NCBI GenBank assembly: GCA_017631885.1
Contig: JAGBSH010000019.1
Location: forward strand, 1-41,671
Direction of reading: 5' to 3'
DNA: 41,671 bases
DNA from: Fibrobacteraceae bacterium
GTDB lineage: Bacteria; Fibrobacterota; Fibrobacteria; Fibrobacterales; Fibrobacteraceae
The notes beneath the pieces are model-generated. The model saw only the letters and a list, made by a program, of their open reading frames with translations, was not told where the DNA came from and did no database searches. Positions 771 through 41,671 of the stretch are shown here, in pieces. A program made the translations under genes and the position numbers. Numbering within the stretch: position 1 is the first letter of the stretch; every line of letters begins with the position of its first letter.

Positions 771-3257
771 CTATGCAGAAGGCAGAGCTTCTGATTTAAA
801 ATCAAGTTTTCCTTCAAGAACATCTACCGTTATTGTTGAAAAATCTGAAAATTCGCCAACAAGTAAACCTTCTGCTATCGGGTCTTCTATATATTGTTGC
901 AAAGCCCGACGAATAGGGCGAGCACCGAGAGCCGGGTCATAGCATTGTTCAACGATATAAAGCTTAGCTTCTTGAGAAACTTCTAACATTATACCGCGTT
1001 CAGAAAGGTAATTTTGTAATAAAGACAACTGGATATCCACAACAGAAACCAATTCTTCTTTAGAAAGGCAACGGAACACAATCTGATCGTCAATACGGTT
1101 CAAAAGTTCTGGAACAAAAGCTCTTTTCACTTCATCACGAATAGACGCTTCCATTCTTTCATATTCTTCACCTTCACCCGTTTTGGTAAAGCCCATTCCA
1201 CCACGATGGCGGATTTCTCTTGCACCCACATTTGATGTCATAATGATTATCGTATTTTTAAAATTAATACGACGACCATAAGAATCCGTTAAAATTCCAT
1301 CATCTAAAATCTGAAGGAGCAAATTATAAACATCCGGGTGAGCTTTTTCAATTTCATCTAAAAGAATCAAGGAATAAGGACGCTTGCGAACTTTTTCTGT
1401 TAATTGTCCACCATTAGATTCAAAACCTACATAACCTGGAGGAGCGCCTATCAAGCGAGATATACTGTGTTTTTCCATATACTCACTCATGTCTATTCGA
1501 ATCATAGATTCTTCTGAACCAAAAAGATTTTCACAGAGCACTTTAGCCAGTTCAGTTTTACCGACACCTGTCGGGCCTAAAAAGAGAAAACTCCCCAACG
1601 GCCTTTTTGTATTGCGAATGCCAGCACGCGAACGCCTGATAGCTTTAACAACTGCTTTTACAGCATAATCCTGACCAATAATACGCTTTTTAATATCAGA
1701 ATCTAATTGTAAAAGTTTTTGTGTTTCTTCTGCCGCTAAACGAGTTACCGGAACTCCAGAAATCTGACTGATTACATCGCGAATGGTATCTTTATCCACG
1801 ACAAGAGTTTCATTCTTTTTATGCTCTTCCCATTCTTTACGCGTATTCGCTAACTCTATTTTTAATTTTTCAATTTTATCTCGATAATCTGCAGCCAGTT
1901 CAAAATTTTGCGCGGCTACGGCATCATCTTTTTTGACAGAGCATTCATCACATTCCCGTTCTAATTCACGGATTGCTGGTGGCGTTGCAAGGCTATTTAA
2001 ACGGATACGAGCACCTGCTTCATCGAGAATATCAATCGCTTTATCTGGTAAAAAACGCTCGTTAATATAACGTTCAGAATACACCACTGCATCGCGAATA
2101 GCATCATCTGTATAAATAACTTTATGATGCGCTTCGTATTGTGGACGAAGTCCATTTAAAATTTCAATAGATTCTTCTGTTGTCGGAGGACTTACAATAA
2201 TTCGTTGGAATCGTCTTTCTAATGCAGCATCTTTTTCTATATAGCGGCGGTATTCGTCTAATGTTGTGGCTCCAATACACTGGAGTTCACCACGAGCAAG
2301 AGCTGGTTTAAAAATATTAGAAGCATCTAAAGCACCATCGGCTCCTCCGCCAGCCCCAACAATTGTATGGAGCTCGTCGATAAACAAGATAATCGAATTA
2401 TCAGAGCGTTGGAGTTCTGCAATAAGACCTTTCACGCGTTCTTCAAATTGCCCACGGTATTTGGTCCCAGCAACCATAGCCGCCACATCTAAAGAAATAA
2501 CGCGTTTGTTTTCCAAAATTTCTGGAATTTTTTTCTGTACAATTTTTTGAGCTAAACCTTCAACAACAGCCGTTTTACCAACACCTGGTTCGCCAATCAA
2601 AGCAGGATTGTTTTTCTTTCTTCTAGAAAGCACTTGTATCAAGCGTTCTATTTCTTCTGTTCTACCAATAATCGGGTCTAATTTTCCTTGGCGAGCAAGT
2701 TCTGTAAGGTCTCTACCAAAATGGCTTAGAACAGGTGTTTTCGTTTTTGTAGAACGCTGTGATTTCCCCATTTGATTCTGGAAATTCTGCGTTTGAAACT
2801 TACCTTCTTCGGTTTCTTTTTTTATTTCTTCTAAAGCGGCTTCTACCGCTTCATAAGTCACATTGTACTTTGAAAGCGTAGCTACTGCAGGAGAATCCTC
2901 TACTTTCAAAAGTGCTAACAAAAGGTGAGAAGTTTCAAGAATAGAACAACCTCTTCTTTTAGCTTCCTCTGCAGAAGTCTGAACAACAGCTTTACTTCTT
3001 GGTGAAAATTCAATCATCAGAGATGATTTCGTGATAGTGTCACCATTTTCAGCAAGCGACCTTTCAATATCTTCTTCCATTGCGTCAAGGTCAACTCCCA
3101 ACCTAAGAAGAATATTTGCCGCAATATTTGCTCGTTCTTTAATGAGTGCTAAAAGTAAAAATTCACTACCGAGCATTTCACAGCCAGATTTTGCGGCTAA
3201 GTTTCTAGCTAGAGTCATTACTTTTTTATAACCTTCAGAAAAATTCCCGCGTTTCAT
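771..3257 (-). CDS. clpC: ClpC-type AAA+ protease ATPase
   Basis: Hexameric unfoldase that feeds substrates to ClpP in the cytosol. Visible parts in order: two Clp N-terminal repeats (residues 1-145), first AAA+ domain with Walker A GEPGVGKT (222-229) and Walker B ILFIDE (290-295), a UVR-like coiled-coil middle segment (about 430-480), and a second AAA+ domain with GPTGVGKT (561-568). The UVR-type middle and the 828-aa length favour ClpC over ClpA or ClpB. A GYVGF pore-loop motif is present in the second ring. The ATG follows the lolD stop by one base and has AGGT upstream, so translation is probably coupled. No clpP or mcsAB gene is in the window. Confidence 0.93.
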
Positions 3258-3258
3258 A

Positions 3259-3948
3259 CTAACCTACCTTTTCTGAAATTTTCCCATGAGTCATAATATA
3301 ACGCTTTGAAGCACAATTTGCCAAGCGTTCATCGTGAGTTACAACCAAAAAAGTCTGATTAAATTCTTTATTCAACTTTGAAAAAAGTTCATTTAACATT
3401 TCTGCATTTTTTTCATCTAGATTACCACTAGGTTCATCAGCTAAAACAATAGCAGGTTCATTCATTAAAGCTCTAGCAACAGCCACTCTTTGGCGTTCTC
3501 CACCAGAAAGTTCTCTAGGTAAATGTTTCAAACGATCTTTTAAGCCAACAGTTTCTAGTAAATACATTGCTCTATCTTTGATTTCTGCAAAAGATTTTTC
3601 GTTTAAGATTCTTGCAGGGACACAAACATTTTCAAAAGCAGTAAATTCAGAAAGCAAATGATGGAACTGGAAAACAAAGCCTATATGCTTACGATGGTAA
3701 GCATCTTTTTCTTCAGAAGTCGCCCGTGAAAAATTTTTCCCATAAAAGAGAATTTCTCCAGCCGTAGGCGTATCCAAAAGGCCAATCAAATTCAAAAACG
3801 TTGACTTTCCAGAACCAGAAGCACCTGTTAAAACAGCGAATTCACCTTGCTTCAAAGCAAAATCTACGCCATTTAAAATAGAAAGGGCTTCGCCAGTTTC
3901 TTCAAAAACTCTTGTAAGATTTTTGGTTTCTAAAATAAAATCACTCAT
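3259..3948 (-). CDS. lolD: LolD-like lipoprotein-release ABC ATPase
   Basis: ATPase subunit of the inner-membrane transporter that extracts outer-membrane lipoproteins and hands them to LolA. The 229-aa protein has Walker A GASGSGKST, a Q-loop in GFVFQFHHLL (FQFHHLL is typical of LolD), ABC signature LSGGERQR, Walker B IVLADEPSG and an H-loop in VVTHD. It overlaps lolC by 8 bases and ends one base before clpC, so all three are probably one transcript. The related MacB and FtsE families share the fold; the LolC-like permease next to it supports LolD. The abundance of lipoproteins here fits a need for Lol export. Confidence 0.9.
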   Translation of the reverse strand: MSDFILETKNLTRVFEETGEALSILNGVDFALKQGEFAVLTGASGSGKSTFLNLIGLLDTPTAGEILFYGKNFSRATSEEKDAYHRKHIGFVFQFHHLLSEFTAFENVCVPARILNEKSFAEIKDRAMYLLETVGLKDRLKHLPRELSGGERQRVAVARALMNEPAIVLADEPSGNLDEKNAEMLNELFSKLNKEFNQTFLVVTHDERLANCASKRYIMTHGKISEKVG

Positions 3949-11800: not shown

Positions 11801-13198
11801 TTACCCAGAATGATTTGAGTTTTCCCTCAAAATACACGTCGCCAACATCTTTTGAGCTTCGCTAAACGCACAATAGTTCTGCATGACAGACTTCACATCT
11901 AGCAAGATTCCCGCGATTCGGTGGTAAGGGCGATAATCGACTTCGCCTGGCTTTGCATCAAGATTCTTCCAGTTCCCATGACAATAGCCTATAAAGCGCA
12001 TCTTGTAAGGACGCGTTTCAAAGCCGTCATCTGGCGGTAATTTAAAGTTGTCGGCATCAAAACAATACGGCAATACGAATGCGTTGTAAATTGCATTCGC
12101 TGTCATTCCCTCGCAGGCAGGAAGTTTCTTTTGCAAAACAAGCCGCTCAACATACTCTGCATAAGCGATTTGCTTGCAGATTGAATCAGAGGAAGGCAAA
12201 TCTGATGCAGAACCAGTCATGCCAAACTTATAATACTTAGCATCCAGAACATAAAGACGACTTTCTCCCCCATCCCACATAATCGTATCGGGTCGCATGG
12301 CATAATTCGGATTTTCATATCCAGGCGTTCTAGAACTTATTAAATCCCATTCACAATGCGGATTAAATTTATCCTTGGCAACTCCCTGCGGCAACTTCCC
12401 AAAAATTCTATCCACCATCGCTTCCCAAACGGGAGCAAACTTGTTTACGCCGAAATAGAATTCCGAATTTATTCCGTCTTCTGTTTGGCGTTCAGCAAGA
12501 TACTCAATAATCTTAGCCAAGTCTGCAAGTAAATGCAAATCCCTATCATTGAATGTCTTTGAAAGTTTCGCATTAACCGCGCTACAAAACAATTCATAAT
12601 CAAAATCAAGAATGGGTTCTTCTGTTGGTTCTATCCCAAACAAAAAACCAAGTCGTTTCAACGCATCATGCACACAAAACTTATGAACAAGCGTAATCAG
12701 GTTATCTTCGCGATAAGACACCTTCCGTGCAATCAAATCAAGATACACAAAATTTTCTTTATCATCCGTAACAACTGGCCGCATCATCTTAATTGTGCGA
12801 TTCCAATTGACCTTACCATGAGCTTTTTTCTTAAATTCCACATCCCTTTCGGTAATATAACCATTATCGAAATAATTGCGAATCACATTCAAATAAGCAA
12901 GCATCGGCAACGCAGTTTCATTCACATTCTCAGATGCAATCACAATCGAAGAATCTTCGTGAACATTTAATAAAAGGTCTGCATCAGACAAAACCGAGAA
13001 CAAATTTATCAGATGCTCTCGAAGACTTTCTTCTGGCAATTCTTGAATTATTGAATTACTTTCAAAGTAACCTAATGGAAAAACGATCTCTGTTTTGTAG
13101 GTTTCAGAATCACTCTGTTTTCTACAACGAATTCCAACGAATTCGTCTCCAGAATTCGCCTTAGCTTCACAACAGCAGATATCGTTAAGTTTTTGCAT
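11801..13198 (-). CDS. LlaJI-type restriction endonuclease subunit
   Basis: The 465-aa protein matches the LlaJI/McrC-like restriction subunit pattern (PF09563-type). A PD-(D/E)xK nuclease core is visible at about residues 300-325: RPDTIMWDGG followed by YVLDAKYYKFG, giving the Asp and Asp-x-Lys of the active site. A downstream QIAYAEYV stretch is the helix with the conserved Gln. It would cut DNA when activated by the McrB-like NTPase encoded immediately upstream, whose TAA stop overlaps this ATG (TAATG), so the two are translationally coupled. The closest described arrangements are LlaJI and B. subtilis BsuMI, where an McrB-like subunit works with such a nuclease. The cut site cannot be read from the sequence. 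Confidence 0.82.
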   Translation of the reverse strand: MQKLNDICCCEAKANSGDEFVGIRCRKQSDSETYKTEIVFPLGYFESNSIIQELPEESLREHLINLFSVLSDADLLLNVHEDSSIVIASENVNETALPMLAYLNVIRNYFDNGYITERDVEFKKKAHGKVNWNRTIKMMRPVVTDDKENFVYLDLIARKVSYREDNLITLVHKFCVHDALKRLGFLFGIEPTEEPILDFDYELFCSAVNAKLSKTFNDRDLHLLADLAKIIEYLAERQTEDGINSEFYFGVNKFAPVWEAMVDRIFGKLPQGVAKDKFNPHCEWDLISSRTPGYENPNYAMRPDTIMWDGGESRLYVLDAKYYKFGMTGSASDLPSSDSICKQIAYAEYVERLVLQKKLPACEGMTANAIYNAFVLPYCFDADNFKLPPDDGFETRPYKMRFIGYCHGNWKNLDAKPGEVDYRPYHRIAGILLDVKSVMQNYCAFSEAQKMLATCILRENSNHSG

Positions 13199-14991
13199 TA
13201 CGAATTCGCAGCACCCTCATTCTGAGACCGTTCAGCACCTGATGAAGAGAATTCAGGAAAATTCTTGAACACAGCAAATCGACTTTTTCCTTGTTCAGGT
13301 TTTTCAAATGCAGCAATCAGTTTTTCAAGAGTATCAATTTCCTCAACAAACACTTTCGAGCGTTTAAACTTGAAAACATCGTCCCAAAGATACTTAAGCA
13401 CTTTTTCTGCAAAAACTTTTTCGTTGATAACGCCGCCCACGTTACTCACGAACCACACGCCAAGCCGTTTATCTTCGGTGCTGGAAAGTCCTTTGAGGGT
13501 GGCCGTAATCTTGGCATTGATCCATTCCCAGAATTGTCCCCATTTTATATTGGTATCGGCAATTTTAGCATTATACTGGACGTTGACGGAGGGCTTATCA
13601 AGGTCAAATTCGTTGCGGACTAGTTCCATGTCAAAACGACGCTGGAAGGCGTTATCCAGCGTGAACACATTCTGGTCGCTAGTGTTCATCGTCGCCAAGA
13701 TGGAAAGGTTAGGCGGCAAGCGGATAGCTGTGTTCGCGTTGAAGTGAATTTCTTTTATTTTGATTTCTTCAATAGATTCACCGTCGTTCCGTTCTTGGTA
13801 AGAACCATCATCCTGTTTTGTTGCTTTGCGGACATAAGCGTTAATATCATCGTTCTGGACAAAATACTGACTCCAGCCTTCTGTAAACGTGTTTACCGCC
13901 GCATTTACCGGGGCGTTGCCAAGAGAGTCTGTTTCGCCAGCCTTGAGCCTATCCAACAACTGGAAGGTATCGCCGAAAATGGCAGCCGCATTACCGCGGT
14001 TGATTTCTTCAATAACTAGGTAAAAATGTTCGTTAGGATTAAGGTATGCTCGCTTGATAATTTGGGTAAAAGGTCCTGGAGTAAATTCGTAGCGAATCCC
14101 GTCATTTGTGACGGGCAAAATTTGCCCGATGAACTCGGCGTTGGTGTATTCCGGATGGAACACGACACGAACCTTGTTCTTTTCTGGAACATTCTTCAGT
14201 TGCTCCCTGATTTTATTGCTCTTTCCGCACCCCGGAACACCATAGTAGATGATTTGGGAGGGAGGGGAAATAGATGAAAGCGGAGAAACTAAAGACAAGT
14301 GATCCTTATCATCCATCCTACAAAGATGTCTTTGCGAAGATTCCTTGAAAACATTCGATATTCTTTCATAAAAAGAAGGCTCTTGTGCCAAGGCAAAAAC
14401 AAGACTACCTAAAAAGCCACTTGCAGCAGTTGTCACTGGCTCTGTAGAAAGAATGTACGCACCAAATAAATCCAGAGTTCCCCTCAAAACTCCCTTTTCA
14501 TTTCCGAATTTTTTAGAATCAATTCCAGCTAGAAAATAACATAAGGAATCTTTATCTTCCTCGTTTTCTTTGCAATGTGAAATGTAGGCCATACTATTAT
14601 TTGTTGTTAGCCAATCATTAATTTTAGGAATATCCTGTATAGCAGAGTTTTTAAACTCATTTTGTAATTTAATGACTAATTTACTTTCTCTTTCATTTGA
14701 GCGTATTTTCAAGTCAAAAAAATCAAAATATTTCTTTAAACAAAGAGCCAAATCATAAGCAACAGCAGCTAAAGCTAAATACTGATTCGAGCAAACCGCC
14801 CAATGATCAGGTGATGTTTCAACCTGAAAGGAATAAGAGCCACAAATACTTTTTACATTAAGCGTTCTTCGAATAAATGCCTCGAAATTTCGGCAATCAT
14901 CATCTGACAACTCAATAACAGGCAAATTCCTTATTATTTGGAGGGATTGGCTTTTTGTTTGGTTGATTTTCTCTATTAAATTGCCTAGCAT
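13198..14991 (-). CDS. McrB-like AAA+ restriction NTPase subunit
   Basis: The 597-aa protein has an N-terminal region of about 230 residues with no recognised domain, probably the DNA-recognition part. A McrB-type AAA+ core follows: Walker A YYGVPGCGKSNK (near residue 245), Walker B LVIEEINRGNAAAIFGD (near 327) and the McrB signature TMNTSDQNV (near 430), which in McrB specifies GTP. It is predicted to translocate DNA or remodel the nuclease using NTP. The ATG at 14991 has GGAGGT upstream and lies three bases past the methyltransferase stop. The 3' part of the gene (13260-14280) is visibly richer in G+C than the 5' part, suggesting a mosaic origin for the N-terminal region. Confidence 0.87.
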   Translation of the reverse strand: MLGNLIEKINQTKSQSLQIIRNLPVIELSDDDCRNFEAFIRRTLNVKSICGSYSFQVETSPDHWAVCSNQYLALAAVAYDLALCLKKYFDFFDLKIRSNERESKLVIKLQNEFKNSAIQDIPKINDWLTTNNSMAYISHCKENEEDKDSLCYFLAGIDSKKFGNEKGVLRGTLDLFGAYILSTEPVTTAASGFLGSLVFALAQEPSFYERISNVFKESSQRHLCRMDDKDHLSLVSPLSSISPPSQIIYYGVPGCGKSNKIREQLKNVPEKNKVRVVFHPEYTNAEFIGQILPVTNDGIRYEFTPGPFTQIIKRAYLNPNEHFYLVIEEINRGNAAAIFGDTFQLLDRLKAGETDSLGNAPVNAAVNTFTEGWSQYFVQNDDINAYVRKATKQDDGSYQERNDGESIEEIKIKEIHFNANTAIRLPPNLSILATMNTSDQNVFTLDNAFQRRFDMELVRNEFDLDKPSVNVQYNAKIADTNIKWGQFWEWINAKITATLKGLSSTEDKRLGVWFVSNVGGVINEKVFAEKVLKYLWDDVFKFKRSKVFVEEIDTLEKLIAAFEKPEQGKSRFAVFKNFPEFSSSGAERSQNEGAANS

Positions 14992-14994
14992 ATT

Positions 14995-16143
14995 TTACAC
15001 CTCCAGTAATTGCCTTTTAATTTCTTTTGCTAGTGTTCTAATCACAGGAACAGCGACACTATTGCCAAATTGATGATAAGCCTCTTTGTCCGATACAACA
15101 ATTCTCATTATCGGCAGCCTATTCTTATTATTCTGATTCTCTGCTGCTTCTGCATACTTCCAGCCATTACCGACGATTTTATACCCCTGTAAACGCCCAG
15201 CTTCAACAGGTGTTAATTTTCTAGGATTTTTTCCCTTTTGAGATTGGTCTATAAGAATTTCACTTCCGTCTTTCCAATAACGAGCCGAAATGGTACTGCA
15301 ATAGATTGCATCTTCCTTGAATAGCGAATAACCGAAGCCTTTCCCGTTTGCACGATTTCGTTCTTTCCTGAGCTGATGTCCAATCCACATTTTATCGCTA
15401 ATGGTCATCTTCTCTGGAAGAGAAGCATCAGGTTCTAAAATATCACCAACTTTTGTTGATATGGATTTATCTAAAGAATCTTTATCAAAGATAGATTTCA
15501 AGTTCGAATCTAAACCAATCGGAAATTTAAAGTCATCAACAGGGCATTGCTTTTTGTCCCAACAAACAAAAAAGAGCCTTTCCCTATTTTGTGGCACACC
15601 AAAATACTTGGCATTTAAAACCATCGTTTTAACTTCATATTCCAAATTCTCTTTTAAAACTCGTTGCATTGTTTCAAAAGTCTTCCCATGATTATGATTT
15701 TTCAGACCTTTGACATTTTCAAGGAAGAGTACTTTCGGTTTCTTTCCAATTTTTATTTTATGGTCAACTATAGCAGCGATGTTAAAAAAGAGTGTTCCTC
15801 GAGTGTCTTCAAAACCTTTACGTTTACCGGCAATCGAAAATGCTTGGCACGGAAAGCCTCCGCACAGAACATCAAAGTCTGGAACCTTTTCCAATTGAAC
15901 ATCGTTTATGTCAGCATTGAAAAACTTGTAATTACCTTCGCAGTCTTTTACAAAAAGAGATGGTTCGATGGCCTTGTAATTTTCTTCATAAGTTATGCGT
16001 GCGTTCTTGTCCCATTCACTTGCAAAAACGCATTTTCCACCAACAGAATGCATTGCCGTGTGGAATCCTCCGATACCAGCAAATAAATCGATGAACTTAA
16101 ACTTCGGCTTACTATCCTTCTTCCTCGCCACCGCATACTCCAT
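14995..16143 (-). CDS. DNA (cytosine-5) methyltransferase
   Basis: Modification enzyme of the restriction operon; transfers methyl from S-adenosylmethionine to C5 of cytosine. Motif I is FIDLFAGIGGFHTA, motif IV is CGGFPCQAFSIAGKR with the catalytic Cys in PCQ, motif VI is LFLENVKGL, motif VIII is QNRERLFFV, and motifs IX-X are LTPVEAGRLQGY and QFGNSVAVPV. The target-recognition region between VIII and IX is about 120 residues. I prefer the ATG at 16143, about 15 residues before motif I; the frame stays open to a TTG at 16206 and neither start has a good ribosome-binding site. LlaJI has two methyltransferases; here there is one, so a palindromic site is more likely. Confidence 0.93.
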   Translation of the reverse strand: MEYAVARKKDSKPKFKFIDLFAGIGGFHTAMHSVGGKCVFASEWDKNARITYEENYKAIEPSLFVKDCEGNYKFFNADINDVQLEKVPDFDVLCGGFPCQAFSIAGKRKGFEDTRGTLFFNIAAIVDHKIKIGKKPKVLFLENVKGLKNHNHGKTFETMQRVLKENLEYEVKTMVLNAKYFGVPQNRERLFFVCWDKKQCPVDDFKFPIGLDSNLKSIFDKDSLDKSISTKVGDILEPDASLPEKMTISDKMWIGHQLRKERNRANGKGFGYSLFKEDAIYCSTISARYWKDGSEILIDQSQKGKNPRKLTPVEAGRLQGYKIVGNGWKYAEAAENQNNKNRLPIMRIVVSDKEAYHQFGNSVAVPVIRTLAKEIKRQLLEV

Positions 16144-16408
16144 TTCAAAAGTGAACTCGTTCACTCTTGTGGGAGTAGCATCTGCCGTTTCAATTAAGCA
16201 AGGCAAAAAGAAAGGGCGAAGAGCCGACTCACTCCTCGCCTAAAAGCGTGACATTTTCAAAAGAATACAATAGCTCGCACTATTCTTGCAATGGATTGCT
16301 TCACCCTTTCAGGGTTCGCAATGACGTTGCAAAACAATCCTGAGCGAATACAGAACGCTCAGGGTACACTACGCCCATGAATCCATAGGCAATGGCGAGT
16401 TATTGCCT
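16144..16408. other. Leader of the restriction operon with REP-like hairpins
   Basis: This stretch upstream of the methyltransferase holds a GTCATTGCG-type palindrome (16293-16324, inverted, stem ACCCT/AGGGT) and an 8-bp hairpin, CCTGAGCG at 16339-16346 with CGCTCAGG at 16356-16363. GGCGAGGAGT on the minus strand near 16235 resembles a ribosome-binding site but precedes no good start. No convincing promoter or control-protein gene was seen, so regulation of the operon is not evident. Confidence 0.5.
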
Positions 16409-16463
16409 TATTCCTTGTGTATGAAATTGTCGAAGTTTCAGTTAGAGGACAAGAGCAAAACTC
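16409..16463. repeat. 55-bp duplicated element, copy A
   Basis: Shares about 49 of 55 bases with copy B at 16690-16743, including an unbroken core gaaattgtcgaagtttcag. GAAA and TTTC in the core can pair around a 9-base loop, and flanking TCCTT can pair with AGAGGA. It matches no RNA family I recognise. Confidence 0.7.
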
Positions 16464-16689
16464 AATGAAAATTCCCCTATTCAGCACTCATCCTGTCTTT
16501 TTCGGAAATAAAAAAGGCGTGAAGTTGGATGCATCTATCTACCTGAGGCCTTCGACTGCCCTACACAAATAAACGCAAACAACTCACGCCCCAAAAGGCC
16601 GTTTGCATTTAGGCAAATCGATATAGAAAATACCATCTAGCAAAACGATGCAACAGGGAATTACCTGCTGCAGACGTGAGTGTTCGTCC
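16464..16689. other. Structured spacer between the duplicated elements
   Basis: No ORF is credible here, but inverted repeats are dense. GGCGTGAAGTTG (16516-16527) pairs with CAACTCACGCC (16580-16590) with one bulge. GGCCTT (16547-16552) can pair with AAGGCC (16595-16600) across it, which would make a pseudoknot. GCAAAC (16575-16580) can instead pair with GTTTGC (16601-16606), and TTTGC/GCAAA forms a local hairpin after that. GCAACAGG (16650-16657) pairs with CCTGCTGC (16664-16671) with one mismatch. This could be an RNA element or remnants of a mobile element. Confidence 0.35.
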
Positions 16690-16743
16690 TATTCTCTGTG
16701 TAAGAAATTGTCGAAGTTTCAGATAGAGAACAAGAGAAAACTC
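16690..16743. repeat. 54-bp duplicated element, copy B
   Basis: Second copy of the element at 16409-16463, in the same orientation, about 281 bases away. Here the outer pairing is TTCTCT with AGAGAA, six clean pairs, so pairing potential is kept although the bases differ from copy A. Confidence 0.7.
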
Positions 16744-16826
16744 TATTTACTTTGAAATATAGATTTTTGAAATGGCAAAAGATGACACTTGCTGTTTTGA
16801 TTATAAAAAAGCGTACTAAATCAGCA

Positions 16827-16852
16827 AAAACCGGTCCCTACAGACCGGTTTT
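16827..16852 (-). terminator. Strong terminator of the Rpn-family gene
   Basis: AAAACCGGTC (16827-16836) and GACCGGTTTT (16843-16852) form a perfect 10-bp stem with a 6-base loop. Read on the minus strand it ends in TTTTT, the expected U-tract, about 30 bases past the stop of the nuclease gene. The A/T-flanked stem could work in both directions. Confidence 0.85.
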
Positions 16853-16880
16853 AGATTTAAAAAAGTTCCAAGCCCCCCAA

Positions 16881-17675
16881 TTAAAGGAGCCCGTGTTCCT
16901 TGAGAATCTTCTCGTACTTCTCGGCACGGGATTCCGCCGCATCCGCACGGGTTTCAGCCTCGCTGGCGCGCTTTTCGGCTGCTTTAGTGCGCTGGCGCTC
17001 ATCGTACACCAAGTCATCCAATTCCTGTTGCCAAGTCATATAGCGCTTCCTCGTTTCGTTGTCCGACAAATACCATTGCCGCTGAAGTTCGATGTTTTTC
17101 GTCTCCTGGGAGGTCGCTTTGTTGGTCGCGAAGTATTCAAGATACTCCTTGACCGACTGTTCGGCAACATCCCTGTACTTATTGAATATATAAAAATTTT
17201 TATAACAAAGGTCACCTAGTTCGTGCTCAGGGTGCTCGATTTCCAGATTCTTGAACTTGTAAACGGCACGGCCTTGCTTGAAAATATCGTCGGGACAGAT
17301 GAAGATAATGTACTGTTCCTTGAGATTGCGATAGGATTCGCCCTTGTTCAGGGCTTCGGAATCGCACAGTGCTTGGTAGTATCGGGTTCGTTTCGGAAGA
17401 TCGTGAGTGTCCTCCATTTGCATTTCGATATCAAAAACGCGGGTTATTTCGCCATCGGGACCCAGCTCCTTTACGAACACGTCGTAACGGACGCCCTTGT
17501 TGAAGGGGCTTGTTTCGGTGGATTTCTCCGGCTCCGGTTCCTGCAGGTCAAAAATCTTGATGCCGAGAAGTGCCTCTAGGAAGGGCTTTGCAATATGCTT
17601 GTGGCTGAATACCAGCGCGAACATGAAGCGGTTCGTGATGGGCAGTTCCTCGAACGGAACGTGGTTTGGATCCAT
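16881..17675 (-). CDS. Rpn/PDDEXK_2-family transposase-like nuclease
   Basis: A 264-aa member of the Rpn recombination-promoting nuclease family (PF12784/TIGR01784). The N-terminal PITNRFMFALVFSHK is typical, followed by the PD-(D/E)xK core: RYDVFVKE, then VFDIEMQ with the Asp and Glu-x-Gln, then RTRYYQALCDSE. The C-terminus (about 215-264) is a charged coiled coil made of repeated AE(K/S/T)RA units. ATG 17675 has GGAG upstream. The gene is clearly richer in G+C than its surroundings and has its own strong terminator, both signs of horizontal arrival. Such genes move or promote recombination but usually lack classical inverted terminal repeats; none is obvious here. Confidence 0.87.
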   Translation of the reverse strand: MDPNHVPFEELPITNRFMFALVFSHKHIAKPFLEALLGIKIFDLQEPEPEKSTETSPFNKGVRYDVFVKELGPDGEITRVFDIEMQMEDTHDLPKRTRYYQALCDSEALNKGESYRNLKEQYIIFICPDDIFKQGRAVYKFKNLEIEHPEHELGDLCYKNFYIFNKYRDVAEQSVKEYLEYFATNKATSQETKNIELQRQWYLSDNETRKRYMTWQQELDDLVYDERQRTKAAEKRASEAETRADAAESRAEKYEKILKEHGLL

Positions 17676-37850: not shown

Positions 37851-37950
37851 AATAAAACTCCAGTTTTCAAGGCTCAAATATAGCAAACATAAAACACCTT
37901 GTTTTTAGATTTTTTTATGAACTTGTCTTACATTTAAGTAAAACCCAACA

Positions 37951-38189
37951 AGCGAGAGTCGCGGCAGATGCAAACTTGTTTGCAATCTGACATGACCGAG
38001 CGAAATGGGTTTCTGTAAAACTTAAGCAAGCGAGAGTCGCGGAAAAACAACTTGTCATGGCGAGAGGCTTTTAGTCTCGTGGCCATCTGTTAGCAAGTTG
38101 TCATGGCAAGGAGATTACCACGCCGTGCTTTCTGCACGGCTCGTAATGACAAGTTCAGGATAGTCATCGCGAACGCAGTGTGGCGATCT
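37951..38189. repeat. 239-bp direct repeat, left copy, flanking the FISUMP module
   Basis: Matches 41389-41627 without gaps, with 6 differences in 239 bases (offset 3438). It contains the structured element also seen at 1-146, here with inner stem GCAAAC-TT-GTTTGC. A second partial unit follows (gcgagagtcgcgg at about 38029), then GTCAT-type palindromes. It provides the last 33 or so codons of the small ORF at 38090-38512. The 100 bases before it (37851-37950) hold the prfC upstream region and no gene. Confidence 0.93.
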
Positions 38190-38512
38190 ACTGGCAAGGA
38201 GATTGCTTCTGTCGTTTCACTCCAGAATTTATTGGTATTCAAATCAATAATTTTCATCCGAGAACCGTTTACAATACTTCTTTGATTCAAAAAAGAGGTA
38301 TTTATTTCAGAATAAATTTTATTTTTCCCTTTTTGAACAAAGAAAACGGAGACCGATTGCTTTGAACCAACTGTAGAAACAGATGTGCGGACACTCAACT
38401 CTATAGAATCGCCTGATATTGGATTTCTTTTTAAATCCGCACGAACTTGATTAAGTGATAACGCGAAAGAAGGAATCGACAAAAAAAGAAAAAGAATAAG
38501 TATTTTTCGCAT
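38090..38512 (-). pseudogene. Small secreted protein (cassette 1), 3' end replaced by repeat
   Basis: Starts at ATG 38512, 6 bases after the cassette-1 FISUMP stop; a TTG six bases upstream is an alternative. A signal peptide (KILILFLFLSIPSFALS) is followed by a region identical to the cassette-2 ORF apart from one residue, ending SIELSVR. The next 60 residues or so (KQSVSVFFVQKGKNKIYSE, NGSRMKIIDLNTNKFW) loosely resemble LolA/DUF4412-like periplasmic proteins. From about residue 107 the frame runs into the repeat: VDRHTAFAMT and KARRGNLLAMTTC are typical repeat translations. The original gene was therefore probably longer and has been truncated. Confidence 0.6.
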
Positions 38513-38533
38513 ACGCAATTAATCCTTTATGCA
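38388..38533. repeat. Cassette 3' block, copy 1
   Basis: About 146 bases covering the first 43 codons of the small ORF and the last codons of the FISUMP gene. It is nearly identical to 39341-39486; I count one change in the body plus a few around the FISUMP stop codon. The blocks mark where constant and variable DNA meet in the two cassettes. Confidence 0.85.
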
Positions 38534-39172
38534 ACGAATAGACATTTGCGAAAATGAAAAAGATGTATCAACAACCATTCCTATATGTAGAGATTGAGCT
38601 AAAGTAGTATTAATCATACTTGATGTCCAAATATGGAATGTTCGATATAAAGATTCATACACAGTTCCGCTTCTCATTCCGGCTGGTTTTGCAGAAAACC
38701 CACATTCGTCAGAGCCAGCCCCCCCCGTAGACGGGTCCCATAATGACGTGCTTTTCATCATTTGTGCCGTTTTACTATCGTTTCCCCCCATTTCTGATAT
38801 TAACAATTTAACATCATTTCCACTTGGAATATGCCACCCTTGAGGACAAATCGAATCAATCATAACATTATCTAAAAGACCGTAATTACCTCCATCCATT
38901 TCCAAAGAGTACAACCTTCCAAAAATTTCACAATTAGTTTCATCGTTGTCATAGCAGGTGCTATAATCAGCATTGTAATTCAAGTTCTCAGCCATCCAAA
39001 CCTGGTTGCCAATGGTCGTGTATTTATACACTTGCCCATCCCGTTCATCAACAAAAGTTCCTCGACCGCTTTCTGGACAGACTTCGCTAGCGTTCCAACT
39101 ATTGCTATCGTCAGAACACGATGCTAAGAACGCGGCAAGAGCGATTGACAAAAAAGCTTGTTTCTTATTCAT
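38519..39172 (-). CDS. FISUMP-domain lipoprotein, cassette 1
   Basis: About 217 aa. A lipoprotein signal peptide ends in LAAFLASC with Cys19. Then comes the Fib_succ_major domain (PF09603/TIGR02145): VCPESGRGTFVDERDGQVYK, TTIGNQVWMAENLNY, FGRLYSLE, SICPQGWHIPSGNDVKLLI, SDECGFSAKPAGMR and the terminal MSIRCIKD. It is predicted to be exported and surface- or periplasm-exposed; the molecular role of FISUMP proteins is unknown. ATG 39172 is chosen because GAGGT lies upstream; the frame is open further. The first 65 or so residues are almost identical to cassette 2, while the remainder is only distantly similar. Confidence 0.88.
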   Translation of the reverse strand: MNKKQAFLSIALAAFLASCSDDSNSWNASEVCPESGRGTFVDERDGQVYKYTTIGNQVWMAENLNYNADYSTCYDNDETNCEIFGRLYSLEMDGGNYGLLDNVMIDSICPQGWHIPSGNDVKLLISEMGGNDSKTAQMMKSTSLWDPSTGGAGSDECGFSAKPAGMRSGTVYESLYRTFHIWTSSMINTTLAQSLHIGMVVDTSFSFSQMSIRCIKD

Positions 39173-39215
39173 TTTGATTACCTCTATTTTAAAAGTTGCC
39201 ATGTTAAAATACGGG
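38977..39215. repeat. Cassette 5' block, copy 1
   Basis: 239 bases covering the FISUMP leader, ribosome-binding site and first 65 or so codons. It matches 39933-40171 with 3 differences and no gaps (offset 956). Beyond 38977 the similarity stops abruptly. The upstream end also encodes the final residues (ILTWQLLK) of the small ORF at 39184-39465. Confidence 0.93.
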
Positions 39216-39465
39216 CCCCTCGACGGAGAACGAGATAGCATCCTGCCGAAAGACTAAAATCGAATACATTTACAGAATGCTCCCCTTCATTCCAAGTTCC
39301 GTTGAACAAGGTCACCATAGGTAATCCTGCGGCGTTTACACGGACACTCAACTCTATAGAATCGCCTGATATTGGATTTTTTTTTAAATCCGCACGAACT
39401 TGATTAAGTGATAACGCGAAAGAAGGAATCGACAAAAAAAGAAAAAGAATAAGTATTTTTCGCAT
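39184..39465 (-). CDS. Small secreted protein with type IX-like C-terminal sorting sequence, cassette 2
   Basis: About 93 aa from ATG 39465, 6 bases after the cassette-2 FISUMP stop. The signal peptide and the segment ending SIELSVR are shared with the cassette-1 small ORF. The C-terminal 50 residues are unrelated to that ORF: VTLFNGTWNEGEHSVNVF and LSAGCYLVLRRGARILTW resemble the end of type IX secretion (Por) sorting domains and Fibrobacter C-terminal modules, with the usual (L/F)-x-x-G-x-Y-x-(V/L)-R pattern and basic end. A signal peptide joined almost directly to a sorting domain suggests a gene that lost its central cargo domain, or a small cargo itself. Confidence 0.55.
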   Translation of the reverse strand: MRKILILFLFLSIPSFALSLNQVRADLKKNPISGDSIELSVRVNAAGLPMVTLFNGTWNEGEHSVNVFDFSLSAGCYLVLRRGARILTWQLLK

Positions 39466-39486
39466 ACGCAATCAGTCCTTTATACA
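39341..39486. repeat. Cassette 3' block, copy 2
   Basis: Counterpart of 38388-38533 at an offset of 953. The boundary with unrelated DNA on the low-coordinate side is sharp, just past the codons for SIELSVR. Confidence 0.85.
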
Positions 39487-40128
39487 CCGCAACGTCATCC
39501 AGGCGTCAGCAAAATGATTCAATACACTTGAATGAATAATAACGTCAAATACGCTACTTGATGTTTTCATTGTCGAGGACCAATATGATGCCGACAAGAA
39601 CATATCTGTAATACCCCCATTCCAGTAGAGATATCCTGCGGGAAGTGAAGAAAAAGCACAATCATCAGAACCGCTTTCTCTTTTCTCATTCCAAAAGTTT
39701 GTACTTTTTAACCTCATCGCGGTTTCTCTATCATCTAATTTTCCAACAACATTTATTAACTCAAGCCATTCATCGTTAGAAGGTACATGCCATCCCATGG
39801 GACAAACAGAATCGACTCTAGCATAGTCTAGCTTACCATTTTCATCATTGTTCTCTTGCAAAGAATAGTATCGCCCCCAAAAATTGCAATCTGAATCACC
39901 ATTGTCATAACAGATACTATAGTCTGTTTCATAATTCAAGTTCTCAGCCATCCAAACCTGGTTGCCAATGGTCGTGTATTTATACACTTGCCCATCCCGT
40001 TCATCAACAAAAGTTCCTCGACCGCTTTCTGGACAGACTTCGCTAGCGTTCCAGCTATTGCTATCGTCAGAACACGATGCTAAGAACGCGGCAAGAGTGA
40101 TTGAGAAAAAAGCTTGTTTCTTATTCAT
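39472..40128 (-). CDS. FISUMP-domain lipoprotein, cassette 2
   Basis: About 218 aa with the same lipoprotein signal and N-terminal FISUMP blocks as cassette 1. The core is different: WGRYYSLQENN, SVCPMGWHVPSNDEWLELI, SDDCAFSSLPAGYLYW, SASYWSSTMK, and terminal WMTLRCIKD. The core keeps the FISUMP landmarks (GWH(I/V)PS, a Cys-containing SD(D/E)C and a late Trp/Ser motif) but most positions differ from cassette 1. ATG 40128 has GAGGT upstream. It lies 31 bases after the small ORF that ends at 40160 and is probably cotranscribed with the whole module. Confidence 0.88.
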   Translation of the reverse strand: MNKKQAFFSITLAAFLASCSDDSNSWNASEVCPESGRGTFVDERDGQVYKYTTIGNQVWMAENLNYETDYSICYDNGDSDCNFWGRYYSLQENNDENGKLDYARVDSVCPMGWHVPSNDEWLELINVVGKLDDRETAMRLKSTNFWNEKRESGSDDCAFSSLPAGYLYWNGGITDMFLSASYWSSTMKTSSSVFDVIIHSSVLNHFADAWMTLRCIKD

Positions 40129-40171
40129 TTTGATTACCTCTATTTTAAAAGTTGCCATGTTAAAATACGGG
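39933..40171. repeat. Cassette 5' block, copy 2
   Basis: Counterpart of 38977-39215. At its upstream end it meets the small ORF at 40160-40483, whose last few codons are read from this block in a different frame than in copy 1. That places a duplication junction near 40172. Confidence 0.93.
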
Positions 40172-40483
40172 ACCCTTCGTTAAAATATTTTCGTTTGAGA
40201 TGGCCAATTCATTTGCATATGCAACTGGAGACATCTGGGACATTTCATAAGTAGCGCAATACACATGGCCTTTAAGTCCAATAACCTTGCTTTGAATATA
40301 GTCCTTAAGGTCATCATTCCAGCATTTATTTTCTTCCAAAGTTGCTTTTGAGTCATAAACAGTATTAAGAAGAATAAATAAGGAATTGTTACTCGGCTCA
40401 ACTGCGGTTGCCGAAAAAGAACTACTAAACGCAAAAATAATCGCTATGAAAGAAATGAAGAATAACCGTTGATTTTTAAGCAT
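40160..40483 (-). CDS. Small secreted protein of unknown function, cassette 3
   Basis: About 107 aa from ATG 40483, 5 bases after the cassette-3 FISUMP stop. A signal peptide (LFFISFIAIIFAFSSSFS) precedes a short mature part with two Cys (ENKCWNDDLKDY and GHVYCATYEMS) that could form a disulphide. No family is recognised. It occupies the same position as the small ORFs in cassettes 1 and 2 but shares no sequence with them beyond the signal-peptide type. The last residues (KGPVF) come from the cassette 5' block, so the original C-terminus may have been lost at the duplication junction. Confidence 0.55.
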   Translation of the reverse strand: MLKNQRLFFISFIAIIFAFSSSFSATAVEPSNNSLFILLNTVYDSKATLEENKCWNDDLKDYIQSKVIGLKGHVYCATYEMSQMSPVAYANELAISNENILTKGPVF

Positions 40484-40488
40484 AAGCG

Positions 40489-41283
40489 CTAATCTTTTAA
40501 GCACCGAATCGACTTCAAATCGCTTTTATATCCGTCTGTATAAAGTAGTTTCAAATCCGTTCGATAAGAAACAACCCTAAAAAAAAGAATTAATTCGTTA
40601 TCTTCAGAAGAACCTTCTGAACTAGACCATGCATCAGCTACATAACCTATATGCGGTTTGTATGTTGCTTCCGATGGCAACAACATAAAACCACAATCGT
40701 CTGATCCATTGAGGTCCTCTCCGCGATTCAGCTCCTTCCAGCCAGTCGTGGAACGCAAACGCACATTGGCTTCAGAATCGCCACCCATTCGGCTAATGAG
40801 TTCAGCAAACTCCTCTTCGCTGGGCAAATGCCAACCAGCAGGACAAGCATAACTGGCGGCATACCAGTTGTACGCGAGCCCAATTTCCTGACAGTTGTCC
40901 TCTGGGAAAAAGCACAGAACACGAGTATTTGACATATTCCCTGTCGTGGGGTCGGGCAAGGAATCAACCACGAACTCAAATGAACGATTTTCCGGGTTCC
41001 AATCTTGATTGTAAATGTTGCTTTTTTCTACCGAGTTCCAAGTGATGGGTTCAAAGACATAAGTCGCCCCCATGTCATAATTCAAATTCTCTGCCATCCA
41101 CACTTGGTTACCAATGGTTGTATACTTATATTCTTGTCCGTCGCGCTCATCAACAAATGTGCCTCGCCCACTTTCTGGGCAAACTTCTGCTGCGTTAAAT
41201 TCTTCACTTGCACTAGAACTATTTTCAGAGCAAGCAATAAAAAAAATGGAGATTATACCCACAAGCAAACACTTATTTTTCAT
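40489..41283 (-). CDS. FISUMP-domain lipoprotein, cassette 3
   Basis: 264 aa, the first gene of the module. The lipoprotein signal ends in IFFIAC with Cys18. FISUMP blocks: VCPESGRGTFVDERDGQEYK, TTIGNQVWMAENLNYD, then an insert of about 55 residues absent from the other two (FEPITWNSVEKS to LCFFPEDNCQEI), then YACPAGWHLPSEEEFAELI, SDDCGFMLLPSEA, DAWSSSEGSS and SIRCLKD. ATG 41283 has GGAGG upstream, the best ribosome-binding site of the three. It is more distant in DNA sequence, so it is probably the older relative from which or beside which the other two arose. Confidence 0.9.
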   Translation of the reverse strand: MKNKCLLVGIISIFFIACSENSSSASEEFNAAEVCPESGRGTFVDERDGQEYKYTTIGNQVWMAENLNYDMGATYVFEPITWNSVEKSNIYNQDWNPENRSFEFVVDSLPDPTTGNMSNTRVLCFFPEDNCQEIGLAYNWYAASYACPAGWHLPSEEEFAELISRMGGDSEANVRLRSTTGWKELNRGEDLNGSDDCGFMLLPSEATYKPHIGYVADAWSSSEGSSEDNELILFFRVVSYRTDLKLLYTDGYKSDLKSIRCLKD

Positions 41284-41350: not shown

Positions 41351-41388
41351 CCATGACCGAGCGCAACGGGTTTCTCTAAAACCTAAGA
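41351..41388. repeat. Partial extra unit of the structured repeat
   Basis: Bases ccatgaccgagcgcaacggg onward match the last third of the structured element and immediately precede the right 239-bp copy. Here the inter-unit pairing is GGGTTT/AAACCT, compared with GAGTTT/AAACTC at 1-146, so pairing potential is kept. The gap from 41284 to 41350 shows no gene; it should hold the promoter of the FISUMP module. Confidence 0.7.
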
Positions 41389-41627
41389 AGCGAGAGTCGC
41401 GGCAGATGCAAACTTGTTTGCAATCTGACATGACCGAGCGAAACGGGTTTCTGTAAAACTTAAGCAAGCGAGTGTCGCGGAAAAACAACTTGTCATGGCG
41501 AGAGGCCTTGTGCCTCGTGGCCATCTGTTAGCAAGTTGTCATGGCAAGGAGATTACCACGCCGTGCTTTCTGCACGGCTCGTAATGACAAGTTCAGGATA
41601 GTCATCGCGAACGCAGTGTGGCGATCT
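41389..41627. repeat. 239-bp direct repeat, right copy, flanking the FISUMP module
   Basis: Ungapped match to 37951-38189 with 6 differences, four of them clustered in a hairpin (gaggcttttagtctcg against gaggccttgtgcctcg). The two copies enclose the three FISUMP cassettes in direct orientation. Confidence 0.93.
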
Positions 41628-41671
41628 TGGCTTTTGTCATTACGAGCATAGCGAAGTAATCCAAAAACAAG
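41628..41671. repeat. Inverted copy of a repeat segment from 10496-10540
   Basis: The complement of the window's last bases reads cttgtttttggattacttcg and then gctcgtaatgacaaaa, matching 10496-10535 with about two differences. It is another member of the GTCAT palindrome family and runs off the window edge. Confidence 0.8.

Follow-up and report, generated by a model that had tools for sequence, protein, structure and literature searches.

FISUMP lipoprotein genes are very probably mosaics produced by recombination, in which cores are replaced as a block and recur, near-identical, under different N-termini in different genera. The locus from which this finding arose lies in a 41,671-nucleotide stretch of Fibrobacteraceae DNA (hereafter the window). 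Our alignments show that the part replaced, both in this array and at further loci, is the core, which extends from the RGTFVDERDGQ...NLNY motif to the RCIKD/stop region. Major rumen cellulose degraders carry FISUMP paralogues in great abundance. The family has been called putatively cellulose-binding, and Fibrobacteres genomes, with one exception, carry 17-119 copies each (PMC4704652). A literature search on FISUMP returned no description of core exchange in this family.

Constant ends and variable cores in the FISUMP array

The array comprises three FISUMP lipoprotein genes and three small ORFs, all six on the minus strand (Table 1). The initial annotation had described three cassettes, each pairing a FISUMP lipoprotein gene with a small ORF that starts 5-6 bases after it, and this layout holds: all three lipoproteins are members of the FISUMP/Fib_succ_major family (TIGR02145, PF09603), with TIGR02145 scores of 151.5, 156 and 126.5 bits for cassettes 1, 2 and 3 (curated cut-off, 41.65 bits), and the gaps between FISUMP stop and small-ORF ATG are 6, 6 and 5 bases, respectively. 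Two 251-bp dispersed repeats bracket the array; this repeat has 92 partial matches in the genome, several of them near contig ends, and the contig itself ends at 41671, just past the second copy. Two contigs of this genome (G000), C9 at its start and C19 at its end (L179, L182), break within the same conserved FISUMP 5' block, and the broken blocks are 93.5% identical over 324 bp. Elsewhere in the window, the region 11801-17675 holds genes for a LlaJI-type restriction endonuclease, an AAA protein and a C-5 cytosine methylase and, after them, one for a transposase of the PDDEXK_2 nuclease family (16881-17675).

Table 1. Coordinates of the FISUMP array, its repeats and the partner genes of relatives
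Feature	Position	Strand	Remarks
FISUMP lipoprotein gene, cassette 1	38519..39172	-	217 aa, lipobox LASC; TIGR02145 E 3.6e-44; PF09603 E 7.6e-24
FISUMP lipoprotein gene, cassette 2	39472..40128	-	218 aa, lipobox LASC; TIGR02145 E 1.6e-45; model pLDDT 89
FISUMP lipoprotein gene, cassette 3	40489..41283	-	264 aa; TIGR02145 E 1.7e-36
Constant 5' block, copy 1	38976..39215	-	upstream region, signal peptide and N-terminus to NLNY
Constant 5' block, copy 2	39932..40171	-	240 bp, 3 differences from copy 1 (39098, 39142, 39149)
Variable core 1	38534..38975	-	54% DNA identity to core 2
Variable core 2	39487..39931	-	near-identical tract common with UBA4223 spans ~39463 to ~40005
Constant junction block, copy 1	38388..38533	-	FISUMP1 end and small ORF 1 start
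Constant junction block, copy 2	39341..39486	-	146 bp, 4 differences from copy 1
Small ORF 1	38090..38512	-	~96 codons (38225-38512) are a 5' fragment of the LolA-fold partner gene
Small ORF 2	39184..39465	-	~42 codons of the partner gene and the 3' end of another gene
Small ORF 3	40160..40483	-	unrelated to small ORFs 1 and 2; no Pfam above cut-off, no NCBIfam match
Dispersed repeat, one side of array	37939..38189	+	97% identical to 41377-41627
Dispersed repeat, other side of array	41377..41627	+	97% identical to 37939-38189
211-aa partner family, full-length examples	L109:188-820, L109:3829-4461, L113:3800-4432, L185:1300-1935, others		follow FISUMP lipoprotein genes

The near-identical ends reported earlier for cassettes 1 and 2 were recovered in both blocks, and so was the strong divergence of the cores between them, which share 54% of their DNA in a global alignment (shuffled sequence, 46-48%) and 39% of their protein sequence. 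Core 1 is at most 48% identical in protein to any relative outside the window, and its donor was not found among the relatives compared. Cassette 3 has only the conserved FISUMP motif in common with cassettes 1 and 2 (80-82% in DNA) and lacks the junction block. Between cassettes 1 and 2, dS is 0.05 in the N-terminal block, and the synonymous sites of the cores are saturated. Because the same motif in cassette 3 keeps its protein sequence (97% identical) while its synonymous sites change freely (pS 0.83), protein constraint is ruled out as the cause of block identity, an explanation that the initial annotation had named as one that would speak against core exchange.

Probable exchange of cores between genera

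A gene in Fibrobacter sp. UBA4223 (DFTB01000017.1, G025:C14) has a core that matches core 2 at ~99.5% DNA identity; UBA4223 belongs to another GTDB genus and carries that gene at a different locus with other neighbours. On both sides of the common tract the two genes part: their N-terminal portions differ with a dS of 1.44, and identity drops to ~79% past the stop. The housekeeping gene prfC had no match in the UBA4223 genome, which is 65% complete; the window prfC is 71-75% identical to that of other genomes of the UBA4223 genus and of genus g7.

The reciprocal arrangement, different cores between the same blocks, was what the initial annotation had expected to see in related genomes if cores were exchanged, and it was found at an orthologous locus. 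UBA4223 and RUG831 (OMSO01000050.1, G067:C22) share this locus at 87% identity over 5 kb; near the FISUMP gene the upstream flank is 93-100% identical and the sequence just downstream 98-100%, and between them the core falls to ~40-75% for ~500 bp. F. intestinalis ATCC 43854 (NZ_FUWU01000077.1), in turn, has a core that matches the RUG831 core at 98-100% identity, but its upstream and N-terminal part is only 53% alike, and its gene with this core carries the 5' block of the window. In the single-contig genome G105, the block of the window is followed by the first part of core 2, and the sequence then switches at a CPMGWHVP motif (the GWHLP site). Compared with each other, ATCC 43854 and G105 are 96-99% identical in their 5' parts, 61-67% in their cores and 81% in prfC.

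These comparisons bear on a rival explanation, in which an old tandem duplication was followed by gene conversion that kept the ends alike while the cores diverged by drift or diversifying selection. Such a history would yield alike ends and unlike cores within one array, and the tandem copies of other arrays likewise have common 5' blocks. However, it accounts neither for a near-identical core 2 under different ends in UBA4223 nor for two unrelated cores between near-identical flanks at one orthologous locus. The UBA4223/RUG831 locus largely refutes it, and we consider it unlikely, bearing in mind that conversion of the ends could act alongside core exchange. Of the two routes proposed earlier, exchange of cores by recombination is supported by this locus, and conversion limited to the ends does not explain how a core 99.5% identical to core 2 can sit between other ends in a second genus.

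The tree of the N-terminal block and that of the core reject each other (delta lnL 206 and 584; AU p 2e-5 and 0.003), and among the 111 FISUMP gene copies tabulated most close pairs agree in one segment but differ in a second. A scan for switch points gave 63 in 140 pairs, of which 55 were left after pairs with copies cut by locus ends (L026, L028) had been dropped. Switch points cluster at family-conserved motifs: 32 of the 55, which are not independent events, fall at the motif start (-90 to -64 nt), NLNY (-9 to +3), GWHLP (-3 to +23) or the stop (-21 to +22). By the same criterion, prfC gave none in 36 pairs, with identities of 70-88% among the compared genomes.

The constant ends that enclose variable segments, together with the dispersed repeats that flank the array, could also suggest that the cores are moved by a site-specific system of cassettes, whether of integron type or dependent on an invertase. 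We regard this as very unlikely, as the switch points lie in coding motifs and at varying positions. Among the window proteins searched, no recombinase (integrase or invertase) was found beside the array, the nearest mobile-type gene being the PDDEXK_2 gene 21 kb away. Still less probable is that short-read assemblers joined wrong cores at conserved motifs. Most of the compared genomes are metagenome assemblies, in which repeats can give rise to chimeric joins, and contigs of this genome do break inside FISUMP 5' blocks. Nevertheless, false joins would repeatedly have to occur as two coordinated events per gene, and the same pattern is given by ATCC 43854, which is not titled a MAG, and by the single-contig G105, although by these two only.

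The results are best explained by homologous recombination that acts at conserved motifs and draws its DNA from paralogues or from other species. Under this model, one ancestral cassette, consisting of the 5' block, a core and the start of a LolA-fold gene (see below), would have been duplicated to give cassettes 1 and 2, after which at least one core would have been overwritten by homologous recombination. Crossovers would have occurred at the conserved motifs flanking the core and sometimes at GWHLP in mid-core, and the incoming core DNA may have come from a paralogue or from another Fibrobacteraceae species. ComEC is present in the genome, which alone is no evidence of competence. As middle parts are swapped for pieces that occur near-identically in other genera while the ends are kept, recombination would make new surface proteins in these Fibrobacter gut bacteria.

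Two further loci of relatives may be recorded. L186 (G001:C40) and L184 (G051:C11), from two genera, are 96% identical over 668 bp that cover the upstream region and the FISUMP N-terminus, and have different cores thereafter. In L098, from the Horse_feces18 MAG, the FISUMP gene at 3001-3657 has a core of the ATCC 43854 type with an in-frame stop across the matched region, and its open frame begins only at VWMAENLNY.

A possibly lectin-like head and proposed surface diversification

The FISUMP2 model (mean pLDDT 89) weakly resembles C-type lectins. Its best PDB structural matches are mostly C-type-lectin-like, none of them significant (best E 0.14), and the first include Bacteroides 4eps, Legionella Lcl and Bdellovibrio Bd2740; sequence searches of the PDB with FISUMP gave nothing significant. 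Close relatives on phages were sought and rejected: the matches lay on five viral contigs, and the best of them reached 31% identity across the greater part of the protein. If the lipid anchor stays constant while a lectin-like head changes, binding at the cell envelope would be diversified. Since cores move between genera independently of anchors, selection may act on the core as the part that faces the ligand, and the family can now be tested as a diversified surface lectin.

Several known systems invite comparison. pilE/pilS, the target domains of hsdS and the tips of Rhs proteins exchange a variable segment between conserved flanks by recombination. The FISUMP genes are alike in having a variable segment replaced at conserved flanks; they differ in protein family, and the likeness seen here is in the exchange, neither a silent library nor a single expression site having been seen. 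The mosaic adhesive trimers (MAT) of Bdellovibrio are likewise mosaic surface proteins with variable binding tips, and the non-significant structural matches of FISUMP2 include the C-type lectin tip of Bd2740. In contrast to these long trimeric fibres with C-terminal tips, FISUMP proteins are small lipoproteins with both ends constant. In variable proteins of diversity-generating retroelements (DGRs) that have a C-type lectin fold (Mtd, TvpA, DUF1566), a related domain is the diversified part, whereas FISUMP genes have their cores replaced as a whole, in a genome that gave no reverse transcriptase. That a DGR acts on the FISUMP domain itself is, barring a gene in an assembly gap, extremely improbable: Fib_succ_major is a reported DGR target domain, similar to DUF1566, likewise a target (PMC4159848), but this genome, 98.8% complete, gave no match to a reverse transcriptase (PF00078), and the variation is whole-core replacement rather than adenine substitution in a short region. 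A more tentative reading, which we hold possible but doubtful, is that Fibrobacteraceae genera have in common a circulating pool of FISUMP cores, which serve as lectin-like heads and are exchanged often enough to alter surface binding within populations; such a pool would be a recombination-based counterpart of DGR diversification of the related domain.

Truncated LolA-fold partner genes

The initial annotation had counted the small ORFs as parts of the cassettes and had described the tails of the first two as unrelated. In their tails all three small ORFs are indeed unrelated to one another, but the idea that the first two form another exchanged module is rejected: by tblastn against the partner genes, both are decayed 5' remnants of a gene whose full length in relatives is 211 aa and which follows FISUMP genes at many Fibrobacteraceae loci. 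The 211-aa partner has no Pfam or NCBIfam family, and its model (pLDDT 81) has a LolA/LolB fold, with a best E of 5.6e-8 to an outer-membrane lipoprotein carrier. The partner family is possibly a dedicated lipoprotein carrier, and its predicted fold suggests dedicated lipoprotein sorting.

The unlike tails of small ORFs 1 and 2 mark rearrangement junctions. Small ORF 1 runs into the dispersed repeat, and G105 continues beyond that point; the fused part of small ORF 2 has its counterpart in F. intestinalis, in an ORF (L185:2-520) that lies upstream of FISUMP. In several relatives the partner gene is truncated too, with other tails.
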